Of a stretch of 64,000 nt of DNA, positions 27,217 through 42,957 are shown piece by piece (within the stretch, counting starts at the first letter, position 1; each line of letters opens with the position of its first letter). Below the pieces are notes generated by a model, which saw only the letters and a list, made by a program, of their open reading frames with translations, did no database searches and had not been told where the DNA came from. This DNA comes from Gulosibacter macacae (GTDB lineage Bacteria; Actinomycetota; Actinomycetes; Actinomycetales; Microbacteriaceae): contig NZ_RQVS01000003.1 of assembly GCF_003865375.1 (NCBI RefSeq), positions 154,800 through 218,799 of the forward strand. Reading direction: 5' to 3'. Position numbers and translations under genes: made by a program.

Positions 27217-28752
27217 ATGACCGAAACCGCCACCCGTATTGCCCCGTCGTCCGCCGCCTTCAACGCCGACGGCTCCCAGCGCAGCTTCTTCGTGCGCACA
27301 CTCGGCTGCCAGATGAACGTGCACGACTCCGAACGCATCTCTGGTTCACTCCTCGCCGCCGGCTATGTCGAGGCGGCCACCGAAGACGCCGATGTGCTCG
27401 TGATCAACACCTGCGCCGTGCGTGAGAACGCCGCCACGAAGCTCTACGGCAACCTCGGTCACCTCGCCTCGGTGAAGCGACAGCACGAGGGCATGCAGAT
27501 CGCGGTGGGCGGCTGCCTCGCGCAGATGGAGCAGGACGAGATCGTCCGCAAGGCGCCACAGGTCGATGTCGTGTTCGGCACACACAACATGGGTTCGTTG
27601 CCCGTGCTGCTCGAGCGCGCCCGACACAACGAAGAAGCCCAGGTTGAGCTGCTCGAATCGCTCGAAACCTTCCCCTCGACGCTCCCGACGAAGCGTGACT
27701 CGACCTACTCGGGCTGGGTATCGATTTCAGTCGGATGCAACAACACCTGCACGTTCTGCATCGTGCCGTCACTGCGTGGCAAAGAGAAGGATCGCCGTCC
27801 GGGCGACATCCTCGCCGAGGTGCGCGCGCTCGTTGATCAGGGTGCCATCGAGGTGACGTTGCTCGGTCAGAACGTGAACTCCTACGGCGTGGAGTTCGGT
27901 GACAAGCTCGCGTTCGGCAAGTTGCTCCGGGCCTGCGGTGAAATTGATGGGCTCGAGCGGGTGCGGTTCACGAGCCCGCATCCAGCCGCCTTCACCGACG
28001 ATGTCATCGATGCGATGGCGGAGACGCCGAATGTGATGCCGCAGCTGCACATGCCGCTGCAATCGGGTTCTGACCGCATCCTGCGCGAGATGCGCCGCTC
28101 ATACCGCTCGAAGAAGTTCCTCGGCATCCTCGAGCGGGTGCGCGAACGCATGCCGCACGCGGCGATTTCGACCGATATCATCGTGGGCTTCCCGGGCGAA
28201 ACCGAAGAAGACTTCCAAGAGACGATGCGGGTGGTTGAGGCCTCGCGATTCGCGAATGCCTTCACTTTCCAGTACTCGATTCGTGATGGCACGCCCGCCG
28301 CAACGATGGCCGATCAGGTGCCGAAGGAAGTAGTGCAGGAGCGCTTTGAGCGCCTCGTTGAGCTGCAGCACCGCATCTCGCTCGAAGAGAACGAGCAGCT
28401 CGTGGGCACGCGTCAGCAGGTGCTTGTTTCGGTCGACGAGGGTAAGAAGGATGGCGCCACGCATCGGCTCACGGGCCGCGCCGAAGACAATCGCCTCGTG
28501 CACTTTGCGGTGCCTGAGGGGTCGGAGACGCCGCGCCCGGGAGACGTTGTCGACGTTGAGATCACGCGCGGCGCGCCGAGCTACCTGCTCGCGGATGCTC
28601 CTGACGGGGCGCCGCTGCGTATCCGTCGTACACGAGCCGGCGATGCCTGGGATGCGGCGCAGGCTGCTTCCTGCGGCACCGGTAGTGCCGACACTGCCGT
28701 GGGTGCAGTGAACCTGGGTCTGCCGACGCTGCGCATCGGCGCCCCCCAGTGA
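27217..28752 (+). CDS. miaB: tRNA-2-methylthio-N6-isopentenyladenosine synthase
   Basis: The 511-residue radical-SAM methylthiotransferase adds the 2-methylthio group to i6A37 of tRNA. The N-terminal domain supplies three Cys for one iron-sulfur cluster ([21 protein letters not shown]). The radical-SAM motif is CNNTCTFC. The C-terminal TRAM domain ends near residue 465. A 45-residue tail beyond the TRAM domain is specific to this lineage. The stop overlaps the GTG of miaA (GTGA), so the enzyme that makes i6A and the one that modifies it are coupled. Confidence 0.95.
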
Positions 28753-29684
28753 CCGAGCAGCCGGCCGAACTCATCGTCATTGGTGGCGCGACCGGCACCG
28801 GCAAGACGGCACTTTCGCTCGACGTTGCCGAGCGGCTGGCAACTAGGGGGAAGAAAGCCGAAATCATCAACGCCGATGCCATGCAGTTCTATCGCGGCAT
28901 GGATATCGGCACCGCGAAACTGCCAGTGGCCGAGCGTCGGGGGATTCCGCATCACCTCTTTGATGTGCTCGAGGTGACCGAGGAGGCGACCGTCGCCTGG
29001 TACCAAGAGGTCGCCCGAGACTGCATTGATGAGGTGCTCGGTCGCGGCGCCGTGCCGATTCTCGTTGGCGGCTCTGGCCTCTACATCGCCGCGGTCGTGT
29101 TCGATCTGCAATTCCCGGCCCGAGATGAAGCCGTGCGCGCCGACCTCGAACGCGAACTCGAAGAGTGGGGCTCGGGGATGCTCCACCGCCGCCTTGCCGA
29201 ATTCGATCCCGAAGCCGCCGAGCGGATTGACCCGCGCAATGGTCGACGGGTGGTGCGCGCACTCGAAGTGATCAAGCTCACCGGCGAAAAGTTCTCAGCA
29301 CAATTGCCCGAACAGGATGCTTGGTGGCGCCACACTGCGATGGTGCTTGTTGAGCGCGAGCGCTCCGAACTCGTTGCCGCGCTCGACGCTCGCGTCATCG
29401 AGATGTGGCGTGACGGGCTCGTCGACGAGACGGCAGAGTTGCTCTCGCACGGTCTTGTTGACACGTCAACTGCGGGGAAAGCCATCGGCTACGCCCAGGC
29501 TGCCCGCCAATTGCGGGGCGAGACCACTGAGGCTGAGGCCATCGCCGAAGCGCAATTGCTCACGCGCAAGTATGCCCGGCGCCAGGTCTCGTGGTTCCGT
29601 CGCTACGACACGGCGCTACGCTTGCGTGCCGGGGATGCGTGGGGAGCGTCACTCGTGCTCGATCACGCCGGGCTCACCAACTAG
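28749..29684 (+). CDS. miaA: tRNA dimethylallyltransferase
   Basis: The 311-residue enzyme transfers an isopentenyl group to A37 of tRNAs reading UNN codons. The P-loop GATGTGKT lies at about residues 12-19, followed by the [17 protein letters not shown] region and the C-terminal tRNA-binding [11 protein letters not shown]. The start is a GTG overlapping the miaB stop. Its TAG stop shares three base pairs with the stop of the convergent dehydrogenase gene. In other actinobacteria dapF comes soon after; here a 13-kb block intervenes. Confidence 0.95.
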
Positions 29685-30826
29685 GGCCGCGGCAAACGCC
29701 CGCGCAACTCCATCGCCTCGCGCACTCGTTCCATCGCCATGGTGAGCGCGGCCTCGTGTGGCAGTGTGCCATCGCGCTGGCTCATATCGAGCACGGCGAC
29801 CGTATTGGCGCGCAGCTTTTCTGAGATCATCTCGAACACCGCAGCGGTGTCGACGACGAACGGCGAGTTGCGAGCATCCGTCGAGTGGGCGGCGGCGACG
29901 ATGCCGCCCGCGTTCGCAATGAAGTCGGGCACGACCTGCACGCCCCGCTCCTGCAGGATGCGGCGCGAACTCGGCGAGGTCGGCAGATTCGCGCCCTCAA
30001 CGATGAGACGTGCCGTGGTGTTGGCCGCGACGGCATCGGTAATCGTGTCTTGCATTGCCGCGGGGATGAGCACATCCGCATCCACGTCGAGCACATCGCG
30101 CGAGTGGTCACCGCTCGCGTAGGCACTCACGCAGGCATCGCCGTGTTCGGCGCGCAAGTCGAGCAGTCGCTCGAGGTCGAGTCCATCGCGGTCGTGCACG
30201 GTGCCGGTGGCGGTCGCAACCGCCACAATCTGGGCGCCGAGCGCCGCGAGCCGTTGGGCTGCGGCAACGCCGACTGCGCCGAATCCCTGAATCGCCACGC
30301 GCTTGCCAGCCAGCGATTCACCGCTTCGCTGCAGGGCAGCATCCGCCGCCTCAGCCACGCCAAACCCGGTCACACCGAGCTGGTCATAGGGCACGCCGCC
30401 CAGCGCGCGGGGAAGTCCGGTCGAAGTGCCGAGATCACCGAGCTCATCGGCGAGGATGGCCGCATCCCGCTCATTGAGCCCCATGTCGAGGCCGAAGAGG
30501 TACTCGCGCGGCACCTCATTGCGGAGCGCTCGAGCGAACGCGCGCAGGATGCGTTCCTTGTCGGGTGAGGTCGGATCGCCGAGGATGCCCGCCTTAGCGC
30601 CACCGTGGAACAGATCGACTGCTGCCCACTTCCAGGTCATGGTGCGGGCGAGTCGGCACACTTCCTCGATCGTGAGCGTCGGACTCATCCTCGTGCCGCC
30701 CTTGCCAATGCCGCGCGCGGAATTGTCGATGACCAGCACACCTCGCATGCCGGTTCGGCTATCGCTGACGACCACGATCTTTTCGGGTCCCCACTCATCG
30801 GCCATGCGCAGCAGGTCTTCTGCCAT
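29681..30826 (-). CDS. Glu/Leu/Phe/Val-type NAD(P)-dependent amino-acid dehydrogenase
   Basis: The 381-residue protein has the ELFV dehydrogenase N-terminal domain with the catalytic-Lys region ([10 protein letters not shown] and HGGAKAGI) and a Rossmann domain ([15 protein letters not shown]), then [15 protein letters not shown]. It deaminates an amino acid to its 2-oxo acid reversibly; glutamate or a branched-chain substrate is possible. In this gene block it could recycle glutamate formed by transamination. The ATG at 30826 follows GAGG; the frame continues to 30928 without a ribosome-binding site. It ends head-on against miaA and diverges from the cyclodeaminase-family gene. Confidence 0.85.
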
Positions 30827-30911
30827 CACCTCGTCCTCTCCATTGATCGAGTCGGTGTCGCCTACCACTTTGGGTGAGAACCGAAGCAATCCGAGACCTG
30901 CGAGAACAGGG

Positions 30912-30931
30912 GCTTGTGGTTGAAGCATAAG
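30912..30931. promoter_or_regulatory. Weak copy of the amino-acid block motif in a divergent promoter
   Basis: GCTTGTGGTTGAAGC (30912-30926) has the GCTT/AAGC arms of the motif at 41927, followed by AAGCATAAG. It lies in the 235-base region between the dehydrogenase gene and the cyclodeaminase-family gene. Confidence 0.3.
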
Positions 30932-31061
30932 TTTTTCTTCTGCTTGGTCGACAGATCACGGCCAGAGTCGGCTTCCAGTGCACGTCGGGGTGGGTAAGTA
31001 TCTGACCAGGGCCGTGATTGCAACGGAGCGATCGCGCCGGCCCGCAACGAAAGGATTCGCG

Positions 31062-32030
31062 ATGACGCGCCCCGCCTATTTCAGCGACGACGAGATCGAG
31101 CGCCTGCTCACGCAGGAGCTGGCGCTGGAATCTCAGCGGAGCGCCTTCTCTGCCCTCGGCAATGACGAAGCCGTGCTCGCGCCGCGCGTGCTCATCGACG
31201 GAGCTGACGATTCCGTCGCGTTCAGCTATGTCGCCCGGCTGTCGCCGCAGGCCCCAGTAGTGAGTAAATTCGGCAGCGTCAACCCCGTCAACGCCGAACG
31301 CAACGAGCCGGTGATCTCTGCGACCGTGCACATGCTCGACGCCGTCTCCGGGCGCCCGGTTGCCACGCTCGAGGCGACGAACCTCACCACTCTGCGTACC
31401 GCAGCGGCCTCGGCGCTCGTGTGCGAGCAATTGGCTCGCGAGGATGCACGAACGCTCGGCGTGATTGGCTCCGGAGTGCAAGCTCGGGCACACATTCATG
31501 CCTTGACTCGGGTGCGAAACTTCGAAGAAGTGCGCGTCGCCGGGCGCTCACTCGAGCGCGCGAAGGCGATGGCTCGTGAACTCGCCGCAGAGATTGATGT
31601 GCCGGTGCGGGTCGTCGGTCACGAACTCGTTGCCGCTGCCGATGTGGTCGTCACCTGCACGACGAGCTTCGAAGCGGTGCTCGAAACCGCGTGGGTCCGG
31701 CCTGGCGCCACGGTGATCAGCGTCGGTGCCTTTGCGCCCGACCGCATGGAACTTCCGACCTCGCTCATCGACCGGGCCGACCTCGTCGTTGTCGACCATC
31801 TTGAGACCACTTCGGCCCAATCGGGCCCCGTGGTGGCTGCCCTCGAATCAGGTTCGATCGGCCTCGGTGACCTCGTCGAGCTTGGCACCGTCGTGACTGG
31901 CAAGCATCCGGGCCGAACGAACCCGCGCGAGATCATCGTCTATTTCAGCGTGGGCATCGGCATCCAGGATGCGGCTGCCGCAGCCGCCGTCGTGGCCGCA
32001 GCCGACGGCGTCAGCGCGGCCGACGACTAG
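31062..32030 (+). CDS. Ornithine cyclodeaminase / mu-crystallin family enzyme
   Basis: The 322-residue protein has the family's substrate domain (VSKFGSVNP, LTTLRTAAASALV) and NAD-binding motif VIGSGVQARAHIHAL. Members include ornithine and lysine cyclodeaminases, ketimine (1-piperideine-2-carboxylate) reductases and amino-acid dehydrogenases. With pipecolate-pathway genes 6-10 kb away, a lysine cyclodeaminase or piperideine-2-carboxylate reductase making L-pipecolate is a reasonable inference. The ATG at 31062 follows AAAGGA. Its 3' end overlaps the split LysR gene on the other strand by 20 bases. Confidence 0.85.
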   Translation: MTRPAYFSDDEIERLLTQELALESQRSAFSALGNDEAVLAPRVLIDGADDSVAFSYVARLSPQAPVVSKFGSVNPVNAERNEPVISATVHMLDAVSGRPVATLEATNLTTLRTAAASALVCEQLAREDARTLGVIGSGVQARAHIHALTRVRNFEEVRVAGRSLERAKAMARELAAEIDVPVRVVGHELVAAADVVVTCTTSFEAVLETAWVRPGATVISVGAFAPDRMELPTSLIDRADLVVVDHLETTSAQSGPVVAALESGSIGLGDLVELGTVVTGKHPGRTNPREIIVYFSVGIGIQDAAAAAAVVAAADGVSAADD

Positions 32031-32967
32031 CGAACTCCGGCGCGAGCGTGATGCCGGGCGAGCGGCTTGCCGTTCGCCGGGCTGCGCGCGCCAGCGTTTC
32101 AGTGAGCTTGCCGATGGCCGGGTTGCCGTGCCGAGGTGCCACTAACAGCGACACGTGGCGCTGCACCGTGAGGTCTGAGATCGTCGCCGTATCGGTGTCG
32201 CCATCGGCGAGGGTAGTGGCCGCGAGCGCCGGCACGAGCGCGACGCCAAGGCCAGAGCGTACGAAGCTCGCGACCACGCTGTAGTTATTACTGCGATAGC
32301 GGATCTCAGGGGCAAATCCGGCAGCCGCACAGGCCCGTTCAACGGCATGGGCGCACTGCGCGTCGGCACTCGTGGCAATCCAGGTTTCATGCTCGAGATC
32401 ACGCAGGGTGATGGTCTGCCCAGAGGCGGGATGCCCCGGTGACACAAAGGCAACGAGGTCTTCCGAAAGCAAGTGCACTGCGGTGAGTTCTGCTGGCCAG
32501 CGCATGGGCACCAGGTCATAGCGGTAGGCGAGGGCGACATCGAGTTCGCGTTCGACCAGCCGAGGCACCAGCTCGCTCGGCTCACCCTCGTCAAGGATGA
32601 GCTCAACTTCGGGATGCGTGCGGACGAACTCCGCGAGCGCCGCCGGCACGAGTTGTCGGCTTGCGGTCGGGAAGCTCCCGAGCCGGATGCGCCCCGCGCC
32701 ACCTTCGCCGAGGTTGCGCACCTAATCGTCGAAGGAAGCAAGCGCGGCAAACACTTCGTGGGCGTGGGCGTGCAATTGCTCGGCGACGCTCGTCGGACGA
32801 ATGCCCCGGGCATCCCGTTCAAACAGTGTCAGGCCAGTTTCGCGTTCGAACGCGGCAATCTGCTGCGACACCGCCGACCCCGTATAGCCAAGCTGGCGGG
32901 CGGCGCCAGCGAATGACCCGGTGCGCAGTACGGCGACCAGGGTGGTCAGATGAGTCGGATTCACCAC
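32011..32967 (-). pseudogene. LysR-family regulator split by an in-frame TAG
   Basis: From GTG 32967 (GGGAG upstream) the frame encodes a normal LysR helix-turn-helix domain of 81 residues (GSFAGAARQLGYTGSAVSQQ) and then stops at a TAG (32722-32724). Without any frame change the next codons encode the complete effector-binding domain (236 residues, 32011-32721) beginning VRNLGEGG, in the linker where relatives read through. One nonsense change explains it. Because GTG follows the TAG directly, the second half could be made by re-initiation, but a DNA-binding domain alone cannot respond to an effector. A sequencing error is also possible. It lies beside the cyclodeaminase-family gene and diverges from the ABC operon. 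Confidence 0.8.
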
Positions 32968-33271
32968 GATGTGCTCCCTTCGCTTTGGTGAGGGTAGCGC
33001 AGATTTGCTTGTGCTCAATAGATGCGAACGAATGAAGCTGAGCATAAGAGCTACTTGCCCTAGGGTCATGAAGCCGCAGTCTTGCGGCATGTGCACGCCA
33101 CTCGGTCGTCGCCAGAATCGGACAGACCGAATCAATCCACCGCGATCGTGGCTCGTCAGCTCGATAAGTCGCACGCAACGGAACGACTCACCCGGCAATG
33201 TGGCCGGACGCTCGGCTCCTCGTGCGTTCCCGCCCCGTTTCCGGTGGGCCGACCACACGAAGGGAACGTTC
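32968..33271. promoter_or_regulatory. Divergent control region of the split LysR gene and the ABC operon
   Basis: This 304-base stretch holds no gene. It contains GCTTGTGCTCAA (33007-33018), a reverse-complement match to the motif at 41928, and CTGAGCATAAG (33038-33048), a near match. A -10-like TAGGGT lies at about 33063-33068, with the small hairpin GCCGCA-GTCT-TGCGGC just after it. The ABC gene is preceded by GAAGGGA. Confidence 0.5.
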
Positions 33272-34036
33272 ATGGCCGACCAGTCAGCGCCGATCGCCAT
33301 CGACCTGAACAACGTCGAGAAATCTTTCGGCGACCACCACGTACTCAAGGGCGTCTCGCTGCAGGTTCCCACCGGCACCGTGACCGCCATGATCGGCCCC
33401 TCGGGCGCCGGCAAGAGCTCGCTGCTTCGCTGCATCAATCTGCTCGAGCGGCCCGATAGCGGCACCATCACCGTTGAGGGCATCACCATTGACGTGAGCA
33501 CCAAGATCGATGACGAACAGCTTCGTGCGCTGCGTCGTCAGATCGGCATGGTGTTCCAGCACTTCAATCTCTTCCCGCACCTCACCGTGATGCAGAACGT
33601 CTCACTTGCGCAGATGCGCGTGCTCGGTCGCAGCAAGGATGAGGCAAACGAGAAGTCGCTCACCCTGCTCAAGCGCGTTGGCCTCGGCGACAAGGCCGAC
33701 CAGTACCCGGCCCGTTGCTCGGGTGGTCAGCAGCAGCGCATCGCAATTGCCCGCGCGCTTGCACTCGAGCCGAACATCATGCTCTTCGATGAGCCGACCT
33801 CTGCGCTCGACCCGGAACTCGGCCTTGAGGTGCTCGCGGTGATGCGCGAACTCGCCGAAGACGGCATGACCATGGTGGTTGTCACCCACGAAATGCAATT
33901 CGCGCGCAGCGTCTCCGATGACCTCGTGGTGATGGCCGACGGCCGCATTCTCGAAGAGGGCCACCCCGAAGAGATCTTCAGCGACCCCAAGGAGCAGCGC
34001 ACCCGCGAATTCCTGCGAGCGGTGCTGGAACGCTAA
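33272..34036 (+). CDS. Polar amino-acid ABC transporter, ATP-binding protein
   Basis: The 254-residue ATPase has Walker [10 protein letters not shown], the GlnQ-type [15 protein letters not shown], signature CSGGQQQR (Cys where Leu is usual), and Walker [13 protein letters not shown]. It powers import by the two permeases encoded next. It is the first gene of a four-gene operon (ATPase, two permeases, binding protein) followed by an FAD-dependent amino-acid dehydrogenase, which suggests the imported amino acid is that enzyme's substrate or a precursor. Confidence 0.92.
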
Positions 34037-34038
34037 CC

Positions 34039-34677
34039 ATGGACGTCCTGCTCAATACTCTGCGCGGTGTGCCGGTCACCCTCGGCATCACCCTCATCGC
34101 CTTCGCCATCGGCGTCGTCGGTGGCGTGCCGCTCGCCCTCATGCGCCGCAGCCGCATCAAGCCGATCAGCTGGCTCGCCATCGCGATCATCGAACTCCTC
34201 CGCGGCATCCCACCGGTGGTGTGGCTGTTCATTATCTTCTTCGGCCTCGGCACCTCGATTCCGCAGATGACCGCCTTCATGGCTGCCGTCATTGGCCTCG
34301 GCATCGTTGCCGCCGCCTATATGGCTGAGATCTATCGTGGTGGACTTCGCTCCATCCATAACGGCCAATGGGAAGCCGCCGAAGTGCTCGGGATGCGTCA
34401 CCGCACCGTGCTGCGCGACGTCATCGGCCCGCAGGTCTTCCGTGTGTCGATTCCCGCGGCCGCCACCTACGGCATTGGTCTCCTCAAGGACTCCTCGGTT
34501 GCCTACGTCATCGGCGTCACCGAGATCGTCTACTACGCGAGCGAGCAATCGCGCCAAACCGTTGACGCGATCGGGCCGTTCCTCATCGCCGCAGCCGTCT
34601 ACGTGATCATGACCATCCCCACCGCCTGGGCGACGCGTTCGCTCGATGCGAAGATGCGAAAGCGAGTGGCGAAATGA
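34039..34677 (+). CDS. Amino-acid ABC transporter permease 1
   Basis: The 212-residue HisM/GlnP-type permease has about five membrane helices and the EAA loop EAAEVLGMRHRTVLRDVIGPQ (about residues 113-132) that contacts the ATPase. It starts two bases after the ATPase stop and its own stop overlaps the next start (ATGA). It forms the membrane channel with the second permease. Confidence 0.9.
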   Translation: MDVLLNTLRGVPVTLGITLIAFAIGVVGGVPLALMRRSRIKPISWLAIAIIELLRGIPPVVWLFIIFFGLGTSIPQMTAFMAAVIGLGIVAAAYMAEIYRGGLRSIHNGQWEAAEVLGMRHRTVLRDVIGPQVFRVSIPAAATYGIGLLKDSSVAYVIGVTEIVYYASEQSRQTVDAIGPFLIAAAVYVIMTIPTAWATRSLDAKMRKRVAK

Positions 34678-35333
34678 GCTTCATCAACGACTGGATCGCC
34701 TACATCCCGCAGCTCTGGCCGGGCCTGCTCGTCAGCCTGCAGGTCACTGGCCTCGCGCTCCTGTTCGGTGTGCCCGGAGGACTCGCCCTCGCGGTGTTCT
34801 CGAGTCATCCGAACCGCATCGTCAAGGCGATCGTTATCGGCCTCGTCGAACTCGGTCGCGGTACCCCTGCGCTCGTGGTCCTCCAGGTCATTTACTTCGG
34901 TGTGCCCTCGGTGGCGCCGACGATCGCGCTCGACTCCTACCTTGCTGCCGCGCTCGCACTCGCGCTCACGACGGCCGCTTACACCTCCGAGATCATCCGC
35001 GGTGGCCTGCAGGCCGTGCCGCAGGGTGAACTCGAAGCGGCCGCGGCACTCGGCATGAAGCCGTGGCACACGCTCTGGGATGTGGTGATCCCGCAGGGTA
35101 TCCGCTTCGCGATTCCCGCCCTCATCGGCTTCGCCATCCTCATCTTCCAGGCCACCTCGCTCGCCTACACGATCGCGCTGCCCGAACTGCTGAGCCAGGC
35201 GTACTCGATCGGATCGAGCACCTTCAAGTACCTCAGCGTGCTGCTCCTGGCGGGCCTGTTCTACGCCATGATCACGATCCCCGCGAGCGCGCTCACCAGC
35301 TACGCCGAGCGCCGCCTCGCGCGCCACCTCTAA
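34674..35333 (+). CDS. Amino-acid ABC transporter permease 2
   Basis: The 219-residue permease has about five membrane helices and the EAA loop LEAAAALGMKPWHTLWDVVI (about 122-141). It is related to permease 1 but clearly diverged, so the channel is a heterodimer. Its ATG overlaps the preceding stop, so translation is coupled. Confidence 0.9.
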   Translation: MSFINDWIAYIPQLWPGLLVSLQVTGLALLFGVPGGLALAVFSSHPNRIVKAIVIGLVELGRGTPALVVLQVIYFGVPSVAPTIALDSYLAAALALALTTAAYTSEIIRGGLQAVPQGELEAAAALGMKPWHTLWDVVIPQGIRFAIPALIGFAILIFQATSLAYTIALPELLSQAYSIGSSTFKYLSVLLLAGLFYAMITIPASALTSYAERRLARHL

Positions 35334-35377
35334 ACCCGAACAATCCATACCCCCAATAACTCAACGAGGAGTTTCCA

Positions 35378-36220
35378 ATGAAGCAACGACGCAAGATGAT
35401 CACCGCACTTGTCGCGACCGCGGCGCTCGCGGTCACCCTGACCGGATGCGCCGGTGGCGGAAGCGGCGACGTCGCCGCTGACTGCCAGCCGAAGCACGAG
35501 TTCTCGACCATCAAGGACGGCACCCTCAGCGTCGTGCTCTACGACCTGCCGCCCTTCTCGAAGCTCGACAACGGTGCGATCACCGGCGTCGACGGCGACA
35601 TCATGACCGAGTTTGCGAAGGAAGAGTGCCTCACGATCACCGCGACATCGGCTGCCACCTCGGCGAACATCCCCACGGTGCAGGCGGGCCGCGCCGATGT
35701 CTCGATCGCTGCCTGGTACCGCACCCAGGCGCGTTCTGAGATCGTGCTCCTCAGCGACCCGATCTACACCGACCAGATGGCGATCATCTCGAAGGATGGG
35801 CTCTCGAGCGTCTCGGAACTCGAGGGCCAGACCGTCGGCACCGTTGACGGCTACCTCTGGGTCGAAGACATGCGCGCTGTGCTCGGCGACAAGCTGAAGA
35901 TCTACCCGACCACGCTCAACATGAACCAGGATCTCGCTGCCGGCCGCATCGACATCGGCATCGACAGCTACGGTTCGGCCACGCACAACAACACCGACAA
36001 CAAGTTCAAGGTTGAGGTCGTGCAGCCCGACGAGCGTGTCGCCGCGAGCCAGGAAGCCGCGCAGATTGCGATTCCGGTTGCGCCCGGCAACGAGGCACTT
36101 GTCACCGCGATCAACGACTTCATCAAGGTGATCCGTGAAGACGGCCGCCTCGAAAAGATCCTCGTCGACAACGGCCTTGACGCCACGGCCGCCGACACCG
36201 GTGACCCGCGCCTGATCTAG
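35378..36220 (+). CDS. Amino-acid-binding lipoprotein of the ABC transporter
   Basis: The 280-residue precursor has a lipoprotein signal (lipobox TLTGC, Cys about residue 24) and a type II periplasmic-binding fold of the SBP_bac_3 family (GVDGDIMTEFAKEE; YGSATHNN). It captures the amino acid outside the cell and hands it to the permeases. It follows permease 2 by 44 bases with a GAGGAG ribosome-binding site. The substrate cannot be read from sequence; the operon context suggests a basic or D-amino acid. Confidence 0.88.
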   Translation: MKQRRKMITALVATAALAVTLTGCAGGGSGDVAADCQPKHEFSTIKDGTLSVVLYDLPPFSKLDNGAITGVDGDIMTEFAKEECLTITATSAATSANIPTVQAGRADVSIAAWYRTQARSEIVLLSDPIYTDQMAIISKDGLSSVSELEGQTVGTVDGYLWVEDMRAVLGDKLKIYPTTLNMNQDLAAGRIDIGIDSYGSATHNNTDNKFKVEVVQPDERVAASQEAAQIAIPVAPGNEALVTAINDFIKVIREDGRLEKILVDNGLDATAADTGDPRLI

Positions 36221-36260
36221 TCCGCGAACCCCGCGAACACAAGTAACCGCATCCGATTTC

Positions 36261-36289
36261 GGCGGCGAAACCAACACGGTTTCGTCGCC
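36261..36289 (+). terminator. Hairpin after the binding-protein gene
   Basis: GGCGGCGAAACC pairs with GGTTTCGTCGCC (one G-U pair) around a 5-nt loop. It may limit transcription into the FAD enzyme gene. Confidence 0.55.
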
Positions 36290-36317
36290 GATTTCGTAAC
36301 TCAACAGAAGGAACCTC

Positions 36318-37559
36318 ATGCACCAAGTAACTGGCGCGCGCGAGCGGGTGGCGATCATTGGAGCCGGCGCGATCGGCGCCGCCATCGCTTGCGAGCTCGC
36401 CGAGAGCGGCCGCGAGGTCGTCGTCATCGATGCGCTCGACACCTGGGGGCTTGGCTGCTCCGACGGCAATGCTGGCTACATCTGTCCCTCGCATGCCGGG
36501 CCGTGGGCGACGCGGCGAGAAATGGGTCAGGCAGTGCGCTGGCTCGGGAAACGCGAGAGCCCGCTGGCAATGCGGCCGCTGCCTTCGCTCGTGCCCTTCT
36601 TTGGGCAACTCATGCGCGTCGATGAGACGGGGATGCGGCGCTCGGGCACTGTGAACCGGGCAATGGCCCGGCGAGCGGTCGAACTGCATCGGCGGCTCGC
36701 CGAATCAGGGCTTGATTCTGGTTTTCGTCAGGACGGCCTCCTCGATGTGTATCGCGATGAGCGTCGCTTCGACGACGCGCGGGTGATTGCCGAACAACAG
36801 CGGGCTGATGGTGTCGATGCGCGAGTGGTGGATGCACGCGGGCTCGCCGCGCTCGATCCAGGCCTCGACGTCGAAGCCGTGGGCGGTGTCTGGTACCCGG
36901 GTGACGCGCACTGCGACCCGGTGCGGTTCATGCGCGCCATCGGCTGGCGGGCGGAGGCGAGGGGAGTGGAACTCATGGCTCGCACGCGCGTGACCTCGTT
37001 GGAGCGGCATCGCCGAGGCGTGCGGGTACAGACCTCGGCCGGTGCGGTGCTCGCCGATCGCGTGGTGATCGCTGCCGGAGCCGCGAGCGTGCGGCTCGCG
37101 CGTCGTCCGTATCCGATGTTGCAGGGTGGCAGGGGCTACTCGGTTGACTTCACGGCTCCGGGCGTCGCGGCACCCAAGCGGCCGGTCGTGCTGCAGGAAG
37201 ACCGAGTCGCGATCACGCCGTTCGCGGATCGCATGCGAGTGGCCGGCATGATGATGTTCACCGGCCTCGATGAGTCGATTGACGCTCGCCGGGTGGATGC
37301 GCTGACTCGCGCCGGCACGCGGGCATTCCCGGAATGGGGCGAGGCGACGATCAGTGCGCCCTGGGCGGGTTTGCGGCCGTGCACACCGGATGGGCTACCG
37401 CTCCTTGGCTGGGTCAATGATCGCGTCATGCTCGCCACCGGCCACGCCATGCTCGGTCTCGCGCTCGCACCCGACACCGCCGAGCGCGTGCGCGCGCTGT
37501 TCGAGGGCGCTGCCATCGAATATGCGGATGCGCTGAATCCACGACGCTTCAGCCACTAA
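36318..37559 (+). CDS. FAD-dependent D-amino-acid dehydrogenase-like oxidoreductase (DadA family)
   Basis: The 413-residue protein begins with the FAD-binding GAGAIGAAIACELAESG and has the DadA-like CSDGNAGYICPSHAGP segment, then a DAO fold ending in WAGLRPCTPDGLPLLG. Such enzymes oxidise D-amino acids to imines, which are hydrolysed to 2-oxo acids or cyclise. Acting on D-lysine it would give 1-piperideine-2-carboxylate, the substrate of ketimine reductases; that step is inference from the gene block. AGAAGGAA precedes the ATG. It converges with the aldehyde dehydrogenase across a long hairpin. Confidence 0.85.
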   Translation: MHQVTGARERVAIIGAGAIGAAIACELAESGREVVVIDALDTWGLGCSDGNAGYICPSHAGPWATRREMGQAVRWLGKRESPLAMRPLPSLVPFFGQLMRVDETGMRRSGTVNRAMARRAVELHRRLAESGLDSGFRQDGLLDVYRDERRFDDARVIAEQQRADGVDARVVDARGLAALDPGLDVEAVGGVWYPGDAHCDPVRFMRAIGWRAEARGVELMARTRVTSLERHRRGVRVQTSAGAVLADRVVIAAGAASVRLARRPYPMLQGGRGYSVDFTAPGVAAPKRPVVLQEDRVAITPFADRMRVAGMMMFTGLDESIDARRVDALTRAGTRAFPEWGEATISAPWAGLRPCTPDGLPLLGWVNDRVMLATGHAMLGLALAPDTAERVRALFEGAAIEYADALNPRRFSH

Positions 37560-37561
37560 CC

Positions 37562-37630
37562 ACAACGAGTGCGGAGGCGCTCGAAGCACGGTTTAGGTCC
37601 GTGCTTCGAGCGCCTCCGCACTCGCGTTGT
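37562..37630. terminator. Very long hairpin between convergent genes
   Basis: A 26-bp perfect stem (37566-37591 with 37599-37624, core GTGCGGAGGCGCTCGAAGCA) has a 7-nt loop, and after a small bulge is extended by ACAAC/GTTGT. It sits between the stops of the DadA-like gene and the aldehyde dehydrogenase gene and can serve both. Confidence 0.8.
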
Positions 37631-37638
37631 TGGTACGC

Positions 37639-39165
37639 CTAGATGAACTCGACGCCCTGGGCGAGCGGCAGCTCACCCGAGTAGTTGATCGTGTTCGTGG
37701 CCTGGCGCATGTAGATCTTCCACGAGTCGCTACCCGACTCGCGGCCGCCACCGGTCTCCTTCTCGCCGCCGAACGCACCGCCGATTTCGGCACCCGAGGT
37801 GCCAATGTTGACGTTCGAGATACCGCAGTCCGAACCGCTCGCCGAGAGGAAGCGCTCGGCCTCGGCCTGGTCCTGCGTGAAGATGGCCGACGAGAGACCC
37901 TGCGGCACCTCGTTGTTGAGCGCGATCGCATCCGCGAGCTCGTCGTAAGTGACGACGTAGAGGATGGGGGCGAAGGTCTCCTCGTGCATCACCTGCGATT
38001 GCGCGGGCATGCGCACGACCGCCGGCTGCACGTAGAACGCGTCGGCAGCCGCATCCTCGAGCACCCGCTCGCCACCGCAGACAACGGTGCCGCCCTGCTC
38101 GACGGCGTCACGCAGTGCCTGCTGCTGGGCGTCGAAGCTCGCACGGTTGATGAGCGGACCGACGAGCGTACCTTCGCTCGTCGGCGCCCCAATGGCGAGG
38201 GTGCCGTATGCCTTCGCGATGCGCTCGACGAGTTCATCAGCCACCGAGGTGTGCACGATGAGGCGGCGAAGGGTGGTGCAACGCTGGCCCGCGGTACCTG
38301 CGGCAGCGAAGACGATGCCACGCAGGGCCAGGTCGAGATCGGCCGAGGGGGCCACGATCGCGGCGTTGTTGCCACCGAGTTCGAGCAGTGCCCGACCGAA
38401 ACGCGCGGCAATGGTCGGCGCGATCTCGCGACCCATACGCACCGAACCGGTGGCCGAGACGAGGCGCACGCGGTCGTCTTCAACGATGGCGGCCGCTGCG
38501 TGACGGTCGGCGAGCACGAGCTGGTGCAGATCGGCGGGCGCGCCGACTTCTTCGACCGCGCGAGCGAGGAGCGCGTCGGTGGCGATTGCCGAGAGGCGCA
38601 CGGCCTCAGCCGGCTTCCACACGACCGTGTCACCGGCGATAAGCGCGAGCGCGGTGTTCCAGGCATACACGGCCACGGGGAAGTTGAACGCGGTGATGAT
38701 GCCGACGACCCCGAGCGGGTGCCAGGTCTCGGCGAGGCGGTGGCCGGGTCGCTCCGACGGCATGGTCTTGCCGTAGAGCTGGCGCGACTGGCCAACTGCG
38801 AGGTCGACGATGTCGATCATTTCCTGCACTTCACCGGCAGCTTCCGAAGGAATCTTGCCGGCCTCGGCGGTCACGATCACGGCGAGGTCCTGCTTGTACT
38901 CAACGAGCAGTTCGCCCCAGCGCTTCACGAGTGCGCCGCGCACCGGCGCCGGAACCTCGCGCCAGCCGCGGAAGGCGGCGTCGGCGCGACCAATGGCGGC
39001 ATCCACATCTTCGGCGGTGTTTGCGAAGGTCCCGGCGATCTGACCGCCAGTGATGGGGGTGTGCACGGCGACCGGGCCGGTCGTGGCCTCGGCGCTCACA
39101 CCGATGCGGTCAAGGGCCTCGCGCACATTGCGAGCGATCTCGTCAGTCGTGGGGAAGTTCGTCAT
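37639..39165 (-). CDS. amaB: L-aminoadipate-semialdehyde (1-piperideine-6-carboxylate) dehydrogenase, antiquitin type
   Basis: The 508-residue aldehyde dehydrogenase has catalytic Glu262 in LELGGNNA and Cys296 in TAGQRCTT. LGGNNA and the ITAFNFPVAVYAWN segment are marks of the ALDH7/antiquitin group, which oxidises 2-aminoadipate semialdehyde (in equilibrium with 1-piperideine-6-carboxylate) to 2-aminoadipate in lysine breakdown. It is the last gene of a three-gene minus-strand operon with HglS and an FAD oxidoreductase, which strongly supports that role. A GAAAGG site precedes the ATG. Confidence 0.88.
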   Translation of the reverse strand: MTNFPTTDEIARNVREALDRIGVSAEATTGPVAVHTPITGGQIAGTFANTAEDVDAAIGRADAAFRGWREVPAPVRGALVKRWGELLVEYKQDLAVIVTAEAGKIPSEAAGEVQEMIDIVDLAVGQSRQLYGKTMPSERPGHRLAETWHPLGVVGIITAFNFPVAVYAWNTALALIAGDTVVWKPAEAVRLSAIATDALLARAVEEVGAPADLHQLVLADRHAAAAIVEDDRVRLVSATGSVRMGREIAPTIAARFGRALLELGGNNAAIVAPSADLDLALRGIVFAAAGTAGQRCTTLRRLIVHTSVADELVERIAKAYGTLAIGAPTSEGTLVGPLINRASFDAQQQALRDAVEQGGTVVCGGERVLEDAAADAFYVQPAVVRMPAQSQVMHEETFAPILYVVTYDELADAIALNNEVPQGLSSAIFTQDQAEAERFLSASGSDCGISNVNIGTSGAEIGGAFGGEKETGGGRESGSDSWKIYMRQATNTINYSGELPLAQGVEFI

Positions 39166-39198
39166 GGATTTACCTTTCGTGGTGGTCGAGTTGCGCGC

Positions 39199-40620
39199 TT
39201 AGGCGTCGGTGCCGTCGGCGTTGTCGGTGCGGATGCGCATGCGGAGTTCCGCTTCGAGCGCGTCGAGCGAGGCTTGCTGCTGTTCGGCGTAGAGGGAGGT
39301 CGGGTCAGCGATGCGGATGCCGATGACCTCGGAGAGACGGTCGATGTCGTAGGGAGTGCCGAGCTGTTCGTCATCGCGCGAGCCCTCACCGCGAAGGTTC
39401 GACTGGAAGATGCCTGCCGCCGAGCGGGGCAGGAAGTCTTCGTAGACGATCGGCTCGGCGACGATGACGCCGGCTTCGAGCAGCTCGCGCAGGCTCGCGG
39501 TTTCGGTGAGCGGCACGACGCCATCACCGCGGCGGAAGGTGAAGAAGCACAGGCCCTGCGCCGCAAGTTCGAGCTCAGTCGAGGGCAGCGACTCGCGCCA
39601 GACATCGAGGGCAACCTCAACACGAGTGCGGTCGGGCTGCTCTTCGTGACGTCGACGGTCAACTTCGGCGACGAGCTGGTCGTAGAGGTCGCGGCCCTTG
39701 GCGGTGAGCGCGATGCCGCGCTGTTCCACCTCACCGAACCGCACCCGCAGGGTGCCTTCGCGCACCTCCCCGTCGGGGTAGCGGAACATGCGGTGCTCAT
39801 CGAGCGCGCGGAACGAGGTCTGTCGCAGCAGCACATCCGGTCCCTCCCAATCGGGCGGGCCCTGAATCTCGTCGATCATGGTGATGCCGCGATCGGTCAT
39901 CCGCTTGTAGAGGTCGTCAATGTCGAGCACGCGCGGTGTGAGGTGGTTGATGTGGGTCGCCGGGACGCCGCCAATATCGGCAGCCACCGACGAGATCGCC
40001 TCGAGGTGGTGGTACCACTCGTGGTCGATCGGTTCGTCAGAGAGCTCGAACGACGCGGTGGCGAGATCGAGGAAGCGGTCCGCATCCTCGCGCTCGAGAC
40101 CGCCCTGCTGCGCCGAGCGGTCGGCGAGGGCGAGGAGTTCTTCTCCGAACAGCTCGCGCGAGCCGATGAACTCTTCGAGTCGTGCCTGAGTCGGTTCGTC
40201 GAAGAAGCGACGGTCATCGTGCGCGAGCATCGAAGTGAACACGCGGAAGGGGTTCTTCGCGAGCTCGTCGGCCGCGATCGGGCGGAATGCGGTCGAAACC
40301 ACCGGCACCGAGCTGCGCGAGGCGTCGCGAAGGTCGTAGAACCCGACCGGATGCATCCCGAAGCCGGCGAAGACACGGCCGACCTGTGCGAGTTCTCGAG
40401 CCGAGCCGACGCGAATGGCACCGTGGCGCTCGGCGGTGACGCGGTCGATGCTGCCGAGGCGTTCGGCGTCAGCGCCATTGCGGGCAATGAAGGCTTCGTT
40501 CACCTCGCGCGACACGTCGACGAGCGTGTTGTAGGCGGGTACTTCGGCGCCGTAGAGCTCGGCGAGGCGCACGGCGAACTCGGCGCGAAGTTCCCAGAGG
40601 GGAGTGAGGGTGCTGGACAT
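39199..40620 (-). CDS. hglS: 2-oxoadipate dioxygenase/decarboxylase (DUF1338, HglS/YdcJ family)
   Basis: The 473-residue protein matches DUF1338, shown in Pseudomonas putida to be HglS, an Fe(II) enzyme converting 2-oxoadipate to D-2-hydroxyglutarate in lysine catabolism. The metal-ligand regions are visible: His66 with Arg70 (ERHGAIR), His223/His226 (ATHINHLTPR) and Glu297/Glu299 (FGEVEQRG). The known enzyme uses one His from the first, one from the second and one Glu. It lies 33 bases upstream of the AmaB gene and 41 bases downstream of the FAD enzyme gene, consistent with one pathway operon. AGGAG precedes the ATG. Confidence 0.87.
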   Translation of the reverse strand: MSSTLTPLWELRAEFAVRLAELYGAEVPAYNTLVDVSREVNEAFIARNGADAERLGSIDRVTAERHGAIRVGSARELAQVGRVFAGFGMHPVGFYDLRDASRSSVPVVSTAFRPIAADELAKNPFRVFTSMLAHDDRRFFDEPTQARLEEFIGSRELFGEELLALADRSAQQGGLEREDADRFLDLATASFELSDEPIDHEWYHHLEAISSVAADIGGVPATHINHLTPRVLDIDDLYKRMTDRGITMIDEIQGPPDWEGPDVLLRQTSFRALDEHRMFRYPDGEVREGTLRVRFGEVEQRGIALTAKGRDLYDQLVAEVDRRRHEEQPDRTRVEVALDVWRESLPSTELELAAQGLCFFTFRRGDGVVPLTETASLRELLEAGVIVAEPIVYEDFLPRSAAGIFQSNLRGEGSRDDEQLGTPYDIDRLSEVIGIRIADPTSLYAEQQQASLDALEAELRMRIRTDNADGTDA

Positions 40621-40661
40621 GAAAGGTGCTCCTAGGGCGTCGTTGGCGTTCGGAAGATCGG

Positions 40662-41858
40662 CTAGATGATGTGGAGTTCGGCGAGTCGTGCCTCTTCACC
40701 CGCGAATCGGCCGGCGCTGAACGAGCTCGGGTCGAGGAACGACTCGCGTTCGAGATAGATGTCGCGAATGAGTTCACCGACGGCGGGGCCCTGCAAGAAG
40801 CCGTGACCCGAGAAACCGGTGGCATAGAGGATGCGCGGATCGCGCGGATCGCGGCCGATCATCGCGTTGTGGTCGGGGGTGTTTTCGTAGAGGCCTGCCC
40901 AGCCCGCTTCGAGCGGCTGGTGCGCGAGCGTCGGCGCGATGATCTCGGCGGCCGCATTGAACTCATCCACCCAGTTGTAGGAGAAGCTGCGCTGGAAGCC
41001 GGGCTGTTCTTCGTTTGAGATGCCGAGCAGCATCCCGTTGCGGTGGTTGTGGAAGTAGAGCGTCGTCGACAGATCGAGCGTGAACGGCACAATCGGATGC
41101 GGTCCCGCAGCTTGCGGGGTAAAGCCAATTTGCCGGCGCACGGGTTCGATGGGCAGGTGCACGCCGACCATTTCGCCGAGGCGGGTTGACCAGGCGCCAG
41201 CGGCGATCACGATGTGCGCAGCCCGGCAGGTGCCGCGGTTCGTGTGCACGTTGACACTGTCGGCGTCTGCTTCCAGTCCCACGACCTCAGTGTGTTCGAG
41301 GACGCGCACACCGAGTTCGGTTGCCGCCTGCGCGTACACGGCCACGACCTTCGACGGCTGGGCGTAGCCGTCGCGCGGTGAGAACGAGCCGCCGACCAGC
41401 GCATCCGCGTTGAGGAAGGGGTTGAGTTCGAACGCCTCGCTCGGCGAAATCATGCGGCTATTGCAGCCGAGCGAGTTCTGCACGCGAGTCGACGACTCGA
41501 CGGCGGCGAGTTCGGAATCGGTGCGGCAGAGGAAGAGGTAGCCGACTTGCTTGAGGCCGATGTCGTGGCCCTCTTGCGTGAGGCGTTCGAAGGTGTCGAG
41601 GCTGCGGCGACCGAGCACGATGTTGCCGGGGTCGGAGAATGTGGCACGCACGCCACCAAGGGGCTTCGCAGAGGAGCCCGAGCCCAGTTCGTCACGTTCG
41701 ATGACGACGACGTTCTTGACGCCGGCGGCAGCGAGCTCGTAGGCGGCGCAGATGCCCATGATGCCGCCGCCAATGATGACGACTTCGGCCTCGGCGGGGA
41801 GCGGGGTGGCGATTTCAGGCTGAAGTGGGACGCAATTGTCCAAGTACTCGTACTTCAT
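40662..41858 (-). CDS. FAD-dependent oxidoreductase, candidate L-pipecolate oxidase (AmaA-like)
   Basis: The 398-residue DAO-family protein has the dinucleotide motif IIGGGIMGICAAYELAAAG (about residues 27-45) and a sarcosine-oxidase-beta-like layout ending in GWAGLYENTPDHNAMIG and GFSGHGFLQGPAVGE. Members oxidise secondary amines such as sarcosine, proline or pipecolate. Being first in an operon with AmaB and HglS, L-pipecolate to 1-piperideine-6-carboxylate is the most likely reaction, but other amines are possible. The gene diverges from a LysR regulator that probably controls it. Confidence 0.82.
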   Translation of the reverse strand: MKYEYLDNCVPLQPEIATPLPAEAEVVIIGGGIMGICAAYELAAAGVKNVVVIERDELGSGSSAKPLGGVRATFSDPGNIVLGRRSLDTFERLTQEGHDIGLKQVGYLFLCRTDSELAAVESSTRVQNSLGCNSRMISPSEAFELNPFLNADALVGGSFSPRDGYAQPSKVVAVYAQAATELGVRVLEHTEVVGLEADADSVNVHTNRGTCRAAHIVIAAGAWSTRLGEMVGVHLPIEPVRRQIGFTPQAAGPHPIVPFTLDLSTTLYFHNHRNGMLLGISNEEQPGFQRSFSYNWVDEFNAAAEIIAPTLAHQPLEAGWAGLYENTPDHNAMIGRDPRDPRILYATGFSGHGFLQGPAVGELIRDIYLERESFLDPSSFSAGRFAGEEARLAELHII

Positions 41859-41926
41859 GCGGGAGGCCTCTCGAAAACTCGGTGGCCGCGACGTTGCGGC
41901 CTCGATAGATCGTCCCGAAGCCGATG

Positions 41927-41940
41927 CTTGAGCACAAGCG
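41927..41940. promoter_or_regulatory. Candidate LysR operator in the divergent amaA-like/lysR promoter
   Basis: GCTTG-AGCA-CAAGC is an inverted repeat of the T-N11-A kind. TTGAGCACAAG inside it recurs (inverted, with CAA in common) at 33007. It lies 34 bases before the regulator's start codon, where binding would affect both promoters. Confidence 0.5.
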
Positions 41941-41961
41941 AGAGATATTGAGTAAATCGTT

Positions 41962-41967
41962 TAGTCT
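41962..41967 (+). promoter_or_regulatory. Leaderless -10 element (TAGTCT) of the LysR gene
   Basis: TAGTCT ends 6 bases before the ATG at 41974. Confidence 0.5.
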
Positions 41968-41973
41968 GGCTAA

Positions 41974-42876
41974 ATGAAGTGGACTCTCGACCAGCTCCGC
42001 ACCTTTCTCGCCGTGGCCGAAGCTGGCAGCATGACGGCCGCTGCGCAGGCGCTTGGCTACACCACTGGCGCGATCTCGCAGCAAATGCAGGCGCTCGGAC
42101 AGGCCTGCGGGGTGCCGCTATTTGTACGTGACGGCCGGGCCATCGAACTCAGTGATTCGGGGCGCACATTGCTCTCGCATGCGCGGCGATTGCTTGAGGC
42201 TGAACGGCTCGCCTCGATCGCGCTATCAGGACCACTGAGCGGGCAACAATTGCGAGTCGACCTTGGTGTGTTTGGCTCGGCGGCGGTTGCTGCGATCTTG
42301 CCGACGACGCGTCGCCTTGCCGAGCAGATGCCGAACGTCACCCTTCACGCCCACGAGGTTGACGTGGAGCGTATGCCCGAGGCGGTGGCGGCGCGTGAAA
42401 TCGATCTCGCACTCGGTGTTGCCTACCCGGCTGCGCCGACCGCGCTGCCGCAGGGGGTCACGACCGTGCCGCTGCGACGTGAGCCGTTTCGCATTGTGCT
42501 CACGCCATCGCTCGAGCCCCTCCGCAAAAGCGAGAATGTGGTTGAGGTAGCGAATGCGACCGGCTGGATTCTGCCGCCAGGCTCGTCGGAATTCGGGCGT
42601 GCGACCCGGCTCGCCTGCGCTGCGGCTGGTATCGAGCCTAATATCGCCCACCTGGTCACCGACACGGCCGTATCGATTGCCATGGCAGAAAGTGGGCTCG
42701 GGGTGACACTCGCAACGCCGCTCATGCTCCGCATGTATCCCCGTGAAGTGGTCACGGCGACGTTGCCGGGGGAGTCGGTGCGTGACGTCGTCGCGATCGT
42801 GCGACGCGGATCGCTCGAGCGGGAGAGTGTGCGCGGAGTGCTTGACGTGCTGACGGAGGTGTTTGCGGGTCGCTAA
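41974..42876 (+). CDS. LysR-family transcription regulator
   Basis: The intact 300-residue LysR protein has an N-terminal winged helix-turn-helix (about residues 4-62; GSMTAAAQALGYTTGAISQQ) and a two-lobed effector domain. It is divergent from the amaA-like/hglS/amaB operon with 115 bases between starts, the usual arrangement for a regulator of the adjacent operon. The effector is unknown; a lysine-pathway intermediate such as pipecolate or 2-aminoadipate is a reasonable guess. It resembles the split LysR at 32011-32967 in its DNA-binding domain (QLGYT/ALGYT, SQQ). Confidence 0.88.
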   Translation: MKWTLDQLRTFLAVAEAGSMTAAAQALGYTTGAISQQMQALGQACGVPLFVRDGRAIELSDSGRTLLSHARRLLEAERLASIALSGPLSGQQLRVDLGVFGSAAVAAILPTTRRLAEQMPNVTLHAHEVDVERMPEAVAAREIDLALGVAYPAAPTALPQGVTTVPLRREPFRIVLTPSLEPLRKSENVVEVANATGWILPPGSSEFGRATRLACAAAGIEPNIAHLVTDTAVSIAMAESGLGVTLATPLMLRMYPREVVTATLPGESVRDVVAIVRRGSLERESVRGVLDVLTEVFAGR

Positions 42877-42902: not shown

Positions 42903-42944
42903 ACTGCGTCGATTGCCACAGCGCGCTCGGGTCACCGTGACGCC

Positions 42945-42950: not shown

Positions 42951-42957
42951 TGACCCC

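Follow-up and report, generated by a model that had tools for sequence, protein, structure and literature searches.

A predicted portable L-pipecolate catabolic cassette in Gulosibacter macacae with a candidate L-2-aminoadipate dehydrogenase

Between miaA and dapF in the genome of Gulosibacter macacae (2.82 Mb, 37 contigs) lies a block of about 13 kb comprising twelve genes, at positions 29681-42876 of the window, which is the whole analyzed stretch of 64,000 nucleotides (G000:C23:154800-218799). Its content raises the question of which compound these genes degrade and by which enzymes. In Pseudomonas putida, D-lysine and pipecolate are degraded through a route comprising AmaD, DpkA, AmaA, AmaB, a transaminase, HglS and YdiJ, and the first-pass annotation of the block held that nearly the whole of this route is encoded there, a view that is retained here for HglS and the piperideine-6-carboxylate (P6C) dehydrogenase and given up for AmaA and the cyclodeaminase. 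Judging from comparative sequence data, the block is likely to be a portable L-pipecolate catabolic cassette with an optional D-lysine entry, ending in the tricarboxylic acid cycle; as predicted, it follows the known D-lysine/pipecolate-2-oxoadipate route, several steps of which have non-orthologous candidates here, and is not a new kind of pathway.

The HglS protein scores 714.5 bits against the model NF050083 (cut-off 600) and 457 bits against PF07063 (cut-off 25), remains at 392 bits under the cut-off of 550 of a second, P. putida-type model (NF049974), and has hydroxyglutarate synthase (6w1g/6w1h, 276 bits) as its best solved match. One report describes a metal triad of His70, His226 and Glu294 in P. 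putida HglS, with Arg74 binding the distal carboxylate and Ser403 on a loop, and presents the conversion of 2-oxoadipate to D-2-hydroxyglutarate as established within D-lysine catabolism (PMC7286885). In alignment with that enzyme, the triad is kept as His66, His226 and Glu297, Arg70 and Ser400 stand for Arg74 and Ser403, and Val402 is replaced by Arg399. By curated cut-off and active-site residues, the protein is a member of the HglS family, for which activity on 2-oxoadipate is predicted. The aldehyde dehydrogenase (ALDH) encoded beside it reaches 781 bits against the equivalog model NF050084 (cut-off 730), with Pcd (6rtr, 701 bits) as its best solved match; it is a member of the P6C dehydrogenase family and is predicted to convert P6C to 2-aminoadipate. 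The identities initially given to the two proteins, HglS (DUF1338) and an antiquitin-type ALDH, are thus upheld.

The enzyme expected to form P6C was approached through gene neighborhoods. NF050083 was exceeded in 34 of 394 genomes of the class, the source genome included, and wider regions were taken for 20 of the 33 other loci (two regions being shorter than 9 kb), with an ALDH near HglS in 17 of them. The P6C-forming slot in these 20 loci is occupied by a DAO-family flavoenzyme in four (L049-L052), by a lysine 6-aminotransferase (LAT) over the LAT cut-off in two (L053 and L066), and by a saccharopine/lysine-dehydrogenase-like protein in five (L056-L058, L067 and L068), of which the one tested, that of L056, has a Pfam saccharopine dehydrogenase C-terminal domain and 3abi as its best solved match; none of the three types exceeds 150 bits in the remaining nine. 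Since LAT yields P6C from lysine, a DAO enzyme in the same slot would most likely yield P6C too, and pipecolate would be its obvious substrate. In the converse survey, contigs were searched with an alignment of six DAO proteins, and the best 80 of 579 confirmed stretches were scored for linked HglS (200 bits), ALDH (300), ELFV (Glu/Leu/Phe/Val-dehydrogenase family, 200) and D-2-hydroxyglutarate dehydrogenase (D2HGDH, 100). HglS was found in 50, ALDH in 49, both in 46 and either in 53, L152 being scored as lacking HglS though two HglS pieces are visible there. ELFV genes (24 loci) and D2HGDH-type genes (20) all fall inside the linked 53, with none in the other 27, some of which are short (two under 8 kb). 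The first-pass annotation had suggested looking for conserved linkage of DUF1338, ALDH7 and DAO genes, a linkage that 46 of these 80 loci show.

Gene calls in the window combined a list of open reading frames (ORFs) with Pfam and NCBIfam scans of the proteins, and gave the following features.

28749-29684: miaB and miaA, named from ORFs
29681-30928, minus strand: ELFV-family amino-acid dehydrogenase (PF00208, 184 bits)
30978-32030, plus strand: OCD/mu-crystallin-family gene (PF02423, 184 bits), start probably near 31056
32011-32964, minus strand: LysR1 regulator, in-frame TAG at 32722-32724
33269-34036, plus strand: ABC importer ATPase (Pfam/NCBIfam scans)
34039-34677, plus strand: ABC importer permease 1 (Pfam/NCBIfam scans)
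34674-35333, plus strand: ABC importer permease 2, from the ORF only, without family scan; L129 counterpart 76% identical
35378-36220, plus strand: ABC importer binding protein, SBP_bac_3 (Pfam/NCBIfam scans)
36318-37559, plus strand: DadA-like FAD enzyme (PF01266, 212 bits)
37639-39165, minus strand: P6C dehydrogenase, AmaB/Pcd-type ALDH (NF050084, 781 bits)
39199-40620, minus strand: HglS, 2-oxoadipate dioxygenase/decarboxylase (NF050083, 714.5 bits)
40662-41858, minus strand: DAO/SoxB-like FAD enzyme (PF01266, 244.5 bits)
41974-42876, plus strand: LysR2 regulator (Pfam scan), divergent from the DAO-HglS-ALDH operon

The DAO, HglS and ALDH genes form a tight minus-strand group with intergenic gaps of 41 and 33 bp. 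Every feature named in the first-pass annotation (the cyclodeaminase-family gene, the amino-acid-type ABC importer, the DadA-like enzyme, the DAO-HglS-ALDH operon and the divergent LysR gene) is present in the ORF list and family scans; its inventory had left unnamed the LysR1 gene and the ELFV dehydrogenase with which the block begins.

The DAO enzyme had been equated with AmaA, an identity that is not supported by its 76.5 bits against the AmaA L-pipecolate oxidase model NF050086 (cut-off 600). Its best solved match is 1y56_B (211 bits, labelled sarcosine oxidase), the next reaching 130 bits, and its solved matches include sarcosine, dimethylglycine, glycine and fructosyl-amine oxidases; 1y56 is, as we take it, the L-proline dehydrogenase of Pyrococcus horikoshii and 1y56_B its beta subunit. 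In a midpoint-rooted tree of 89 DAO proteins, the window's group comprises 24 sequences with support of 100/100, all of them from linked loci. Elsewhere in the survey, an OCD-family gene lies near DAO in five of the 27 loci without HglS or ALDH (L159, L169, L172, L198 and L213), a hint that Streptomyces may have a further route for cyclic amino acids, and Streptomyces actuosus (L178:803-11619) has two DAO-ALDH pairs, the first of which is grouped with HglS and ELFV. At L223:9638-10791 (G275), the DAO homologue is in two pieces, as if frame-broken, and the ELFV match there has one TGA.

The step from 2-aminoadipate to 2-oxoadipate had been described as lacking a transaminase in the block. No aminotransferase is indeed found among the twelve genes, but the step is likely supplied by the ELFV protein, so that the original observation is better than first stated, because a good candidate for the missing step lies inside the block. 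This protein is probably an L-2-aminoadipate dehydrogenase acting in place of a transaminase, on account of its linkage to DAO, ALDH and HglS and of a conserved Lys. It falls short of the glutamate dehydrogenase (GDH) equivalog models (202 against 620, 181.5 against 750 and 111 against 536 bits), its closest solved relatives are GDHs (164 bits), and it is a second paralogue in a genome that also encodes a canonical GDH, on contig 7. Its orthologues were searched by ELFV similarity alone, which avoids selecting on DAO or HglS, in overlapping samples of 394 genomes of the class, 396 of the order and 249 of the family of G515, scoring being confined to the best 4 to 7 candidates of each genome. 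A strong orthologue (427-492 bits) occurs in 12 genomes other than the source, and three weaker hits in the class (229-261 bits) were set apart as another subfamily. The G515 orthologue lies on a 3.2-kb contig, which leaves 11 informative loci; in 8 of these, DAO, ALDH and/or HglS share a 16- to 19-kb region with ELFV (HglS in six), the linked enzyme genes of G1075 and G1011 being about 6 to 8 kb away. A rough estimate of our own puts chance co-occurrence at about 0.6% per 19-kb region, if genomes measure at least 3 Mb and each has a single P6C dehydrogenase. In three loci of one genus (L239, L240 and L241), the ELFV orthologue has a LysR1 homologue as its neighbor, and the 19 kb taken include no DAO, ALDH or HglS.

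The residues of the putative binding pocket were compared as well. In GDH, the KGGxR Lys is presumably the ligand of the side-chain carboxylate, and the residue shaping the pocket is presumably the Ser that follows the C-terminal NxGG motif. The Lys is kept, in the form KGGTR, in 30 of 30 readable cluster-type ELFV proteins (L182 is cut there) and is Ile in the three weaker hits. The canonical GDH of the source genome has the motif Lys and a Ser after NSGG, and 3aoe likewise has Ser, where the cluster-type proteins have Ala. A Lys with a smaller neighbor would fit an acidic substrate that exceeds glutamate by one carbon. Among other candidates in the source genome, LAT was rejected as an entry (11 matches, the best 122 bits against a cut-off of 520.8), and a class III aminotransferase encoded on contig 5, next to a GlcD-like gene, was rejected as the 2-aminoadipate transaminase, as it passes the ornithine aminotransferase model (438 against 378 bits).

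The clusters without HglS bear on the fate of 2-oxoadipate. Two ELFV loci of this kind, in G450 (L222) and G275 (L223), each combine an acyl-CoA dehydrogenase with a 2-oxoacid dehydrogenase of E1 type. The best solved matches of the L222 acyl-CoA dehydrogenase are glutaryl-CoA dehydrogenases (3swo 601, 3sf6 597 and 2eba 421 bits); 4w9u, labelled just acyl-CoA dehydrogenase, stands amid them at 388 bits, the first other named type, short-chain, follows at 228, and the L223 protein is 72% identical to that of L222. Among the best 80 of 579 DAO loci, E1 exceeds 150 bits only in L196 (with DAO, ALDH and ELFV, HglS not being seen in the stretch), and no glutaryl-CoA dehydrogenase was found. A glutaryl-CoA alternative from 2-oxoadipate is named, apparently for fungi, in the discussion of the HglS report (PMC7286885), and the clusters without HglS may carry this other known exit. 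As to the final step after HglS, the statement that the block has no 2-hydroxyglutarate dehydrogenase is borne out, and a YdiJ-like homologue is encoded on contig 32; it is 51% identical over 951 amino acids to a cluster-linked Arthrobacter YdiJ-type protein, and both lie below the cut-off of 1350 bits of the YdiJ model NF049975 (426 for the contig 32 protein, 412 for the Arthrobacter one). The GlcD-like gene of contig 5 was set aside as best D2HGDH candidate, with 41-42% identity to the cluster-linked GlcD type against 51% to the YdiJ type for contig 32. On balance, and with somewhat less assurance than for the pipecolate cassette itself, we lean towards the view that the ELFV subfamily marked by the cassette would be dedicated to L-2-aminoadipate dehydrogenation, with the cassette as one version of a modular 2-oxoadipate pathway of actinobacteria. 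Such a pathway would combine exchangeable front ends (lysine 6-transaminase, lysine-dehydrogenase-like, or a separate pipecolate flavoenzyme family) with one P6C dehydrogenase and exchangeable exits (HglS with D2HGDH, or 2-oxoadipate dehydrogenase with glutaryl-CoA dehydrogenase).

The plus-strand genes concern uptake and entry. The OCD-family gene had been taken for a cyclodeaminase, a reading that comparison does not support, as its best solved match is the Delta1-pyrroline-2-carboxylate reductase 6t3e (152.7 bits), followed by alanine dehydrogenase (121), iminosuccinate reductase (110), lysine cyclodeaminase (68, on which that specific identity was rejected) and ornithine cyclodeaminase (62). 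No NCBIfam model is exceeded, neither the best-scoring PRK08618, 'ornithine cyclodeaminase family protein' (194.7 against 417 bits), nor the Delta1-piperideine-2-carboxylate reductase models NF004793 (158 against 322) and NF045512 (109 against 400). At the putative catalytic Asp site, presumably that of Asp228 in the P. putida OCD, the protein has Phe (VGAFAPDRMEL); in an alignment that held no cyclodeaminase, Asp is found there in 1omo and 6rqa and not in 6t3e or 2i99. The enzyme looks more like an imine reductase than a cyclodeaminase. The DadA-like enzyme reaches 217.6 bits against the DadA model NF001933 (subfamily cut-off 383) and at most 77 bits against solved structures.

The association of these genes with the HglS operon varies among relatives. 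In five Arthrobacter/Cryobacterium loci (L137, L140, L141, L142 and L156), a DAO-HglS-ALDH-ELFV group diverges from an SBP-OCD-ABC-DadA-like set whose OCD and DadA proteins are only 28-35% identical to those of the window. In Agromyces L134 and Arthrobacter L135, DAO-HglS-ALDH is present and OCD, DadA and ELFV were not seen in the stretches examined; L136 shows importer, LysR1 and ELFV, with OCD and DadA not seen in its stretch. Of the arrangement first proposed, with importer, DadA-like and cyclodeaminase-like genes beside the HglS operon, the colinear order in G538, another species of the genus, speaks in favor, and the regions of some related clusters in which DadA- and OCD-like genes were not seen speak against. 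With respect to the regulators, LysR1 is a single uninterrupted frame in the relative L129, the in-frame TAG of the window being either a recent loss or a sequence error, and LysR2 lies divergently beside DAO in three of the four class-level DAO loci and occurs in 30 of the 53 DAO loci with HglS or ALDH; because of its divergent position, it likely controls the DAO-HglS-ALDH operon.

Whether the block is a unit was assessed from its distribution. A dapF search over 60 relatives, the source included, matched 56 and returned 30 loci. In 25 of the 29 loci outside the source genome miaA adjoins dapF, while one of the other four stops at a contig edge and three have no visible miaA, for which reason the block is regarded as an extra unit. 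In one DNA search over 11 genomes of the genus, among the matches listed, the source, G537 and G538 match across the cassette, and the other eight only in miaA, dapF, an ABC transporter and short pieces. The twelve genes are colinear in G538 at C1:2450238-2465250, a different site well away from the miaA-dapF pair of that genome (C1:326424-328262); in G537, parts of the cassette lie on short contigs, and on one of these miaA is directly joined with ELFV. PF07063 was found in one of 150 genomes of the family, the source itself, in a sample whose genus members include neither G537 nor G538. Because of the colinear recurrence at another site in G538 and the patchy distribution in the genus, the block, as far as gene order tells, behaves as a portable catabolic unit. 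No tRNA was found within the window, no exact direct or inverted repeats of at least 10 bases between 29301-29900 and 42701-43200, and no clear break in composition at the block borders. Between DadA and ALDH, G538 has one additional gene, for an OYE-family flavoenzyme of 639 amino acids (L129:8457-10376), perhaps for an N-substituted pipecolate, and the stretch next to that cassette (L129:1-3091) encodes an ALDH, an SDR-like protein and a class III-like aminotransferase that is truncated at the region edge, all named by eye. In the window, 3' of dapF and outside the cassette, 43971-46336 holds genes for a binding protein and an ABC ATPase, by eye resembling a polyamine importer.

In the proposed route, the ABC importer would bring in pipecolate or lysine. 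D-Lysine would be converted by the DadA-like enzyme to Delta1-piperideine-2-carboxylate, and this by the OCD-family enzyme to L-pipecolate, these two being the weakest steps. The SoxB-like DAO would oxidize L-pipecolate to Delta1-piperideine-6-carboxylate, from which the ALDH, by its family membership, is predicted to form L-2-aminoadipate; the ELFV enzyme, to judge from linkage and the conserved Lys, would deaminate this to 2-oxoadipate. HglS, with its family membership and active-site residues, is expected to yield D-2-hydroxyglutarate, which the YdiJ-like dehydrogenase encoded elsewhere, a homologue of the cluster-linked type, may oxidize to 2-oxoglutarate. LysR2 would regulate the DAO-HglS-ALDH operon.

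Several observations weigh against this route or its parts. The DAO enzyme is outside the AmaA family, enzymes of its superfamily act on many amines, and the tree places 23 of the 27 unlinked DAO homologues together in one Streptomyces group. ELFV may also be a plain GDH that serves a transaminase. Three of the 11 informative ELFV loci (G901, G916 and G926, one genus) are without linked enzyme genes in 19 kb. In 29 of the 53 linked DAO loci ELFV stays below threshold, and these include the closest ones beyond the genus (Agromyces L134, Arthrobacter L135), though some contigs are short. The three weaker hits also have Ala where GDH has Ser, so that this residue is not specific to the cluster type. 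The OCD-like and DadA-like genes are below every curated cut-off, which makes the D-lysine entry weak; one regulator, LysR1, is interrupted; and no NCBIfam model is exceeded by the L222/L223 genes (glutaryl-CoA dehydrogenase Acd 204 against 470, E1 at most 147 against 321 bits), so that 2-oxoadipate is a presumed substrate of E1.

Three other explanations can be framed, each considered less probable. It is possible, though rather unlikely, that the route is the same and ELFV is a GDH regenerating 2-oxoglutarate for a 2-aminoadipate transaminase encoded elsewhere. P. putida transaminates 2-aminoadipate, the closest solved relatives of ELFV are GDHs and the glutamate-type Lys is kept, several class III aminotransferases are encoded elsewhere in the source genome, and in G538 a gene taken by eye for a class III-like aminotransferase follows LysR2 at a distance of about 2.4 kb, with a similar one at L052:16561-17865; a canonical GDH, however, is already present on contig 7, no aminotransferase belongs to the cassette, ELFV scores far below the cut-off of every GDH equivalog model, and the Ser of the source GDH and of 3aoe is Ala in the 30 readable cluster proteins, albeit also in the three weaker hits. 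Less probable still is that DAO oxidizes another lysine-derived secondary amine, such as saccharopine or an N-substituted lysine or pipecolate, to P6C, the later core being unchanged. The breadth of amines taken by DAO/SoxB-type enzymes and the OYE-family flavoenzyme of G538, which might process an N-substituted substrate, would agree with it, but no saccharopine-forming enzyme was recognized in the block by Pfam or NCBIfam scans, the OCD-family and DadA-like genes fit an entry by cyclic imine or pipecolate, and proline, the substrate we assume for the best solved match of DAO, is a ring homologue of pipecolate. That the block is a loose collection, its plus-strand half (OCD, ABC, DadA) being an unrelated amino-acid uptake set adjoining the HglS operon, seems improbable. 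In L134 and L135, as well as in L136, parts of the set were not seen in the stretches examined, and OCD and DadA score low, but the full order is kept in G538 at its other site and in the broken G537 contigs, the pairing with distant OCD and DadA proteins in the five Arthrobacter/Cryobacterium loci looks independent, and G450 has OCD-ABC genes beside ELFV. The pipecolate cassette is preferred to all three.

Pipecolate takes part in plant systemic acquired resistance (PMC7286885) and has been described as a compatible solute (PMC6397837). If the preferred route is true, a gene family would be assigned to 2-aminoadipate dehydrogenase activity, a second, separate bacterial pipecolate oxidase family would be recognized, and a gene-neighborhood rule would predict pipecolate and lysine use in actinobacteria; the exchange of HglS for the glutaryl-CoA exit would be a natural pointer to 2-oxoadipate as the node. 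In a literature search that covered mostly titles and the beginnings of abstracts and few subscription papers, none of the papers listed dealt with this cluster or with a 2-aminoadipate dehydrogenase of the ELFV family, nor was any found for 2-aminoadipate dehydrogenase activity as such, so that novelty is provisional.

Compared with known systems, the cassette shares with the P. putida route a homologous P6C dehydrogenase and HglS, the same proposed intermediates from pipecolate to D-2-hydroxyglutarate, and a YdiJ-like candidate for the end. It differs in a pipecolate flavoenzyme outside the AmaA family, an ELFV dehydrogenase in place of the transaminase, an OCD-family enzyme where P. putida has DpkA, which presumably belongs to another family, and its organization as one cassette with its own importer and regulators. 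Its HglS fits the mycobacterial-type model (714 against 600 bits) and not the P. putida type (392 against 550). A P. putida-type pathway with all steps by the same families was not found, since only ALDH and HglS pass curated models and AmaA fails, the other P. putida enzymes not having been directly compared. The P. horikoshii L-proline dehydrogenase beta subunit is the best solved relative of DAO, from which the cassette differs in that no partner subunit gene was recognized in the block and in the ring size of the substrate. The glutaryl-CoA route shares 2-oxoadipate and has candidate genes in L222 and L223, whereas the window would use the HglS oxygenase step and not CoA chemistry. Actinobacterial LAT-Pcd gene sets, which according to one source belong to the cephamycin pathway (PMC9854754), have the same Pcd-type ALDH, and L053 and L066 also carry HglS near LAT; unlike the cassette, they form P6C from L-lysine by lysine 6-aminotransferase and not by a flavoenzyme, and the source genome has no LAT over the cut-off.

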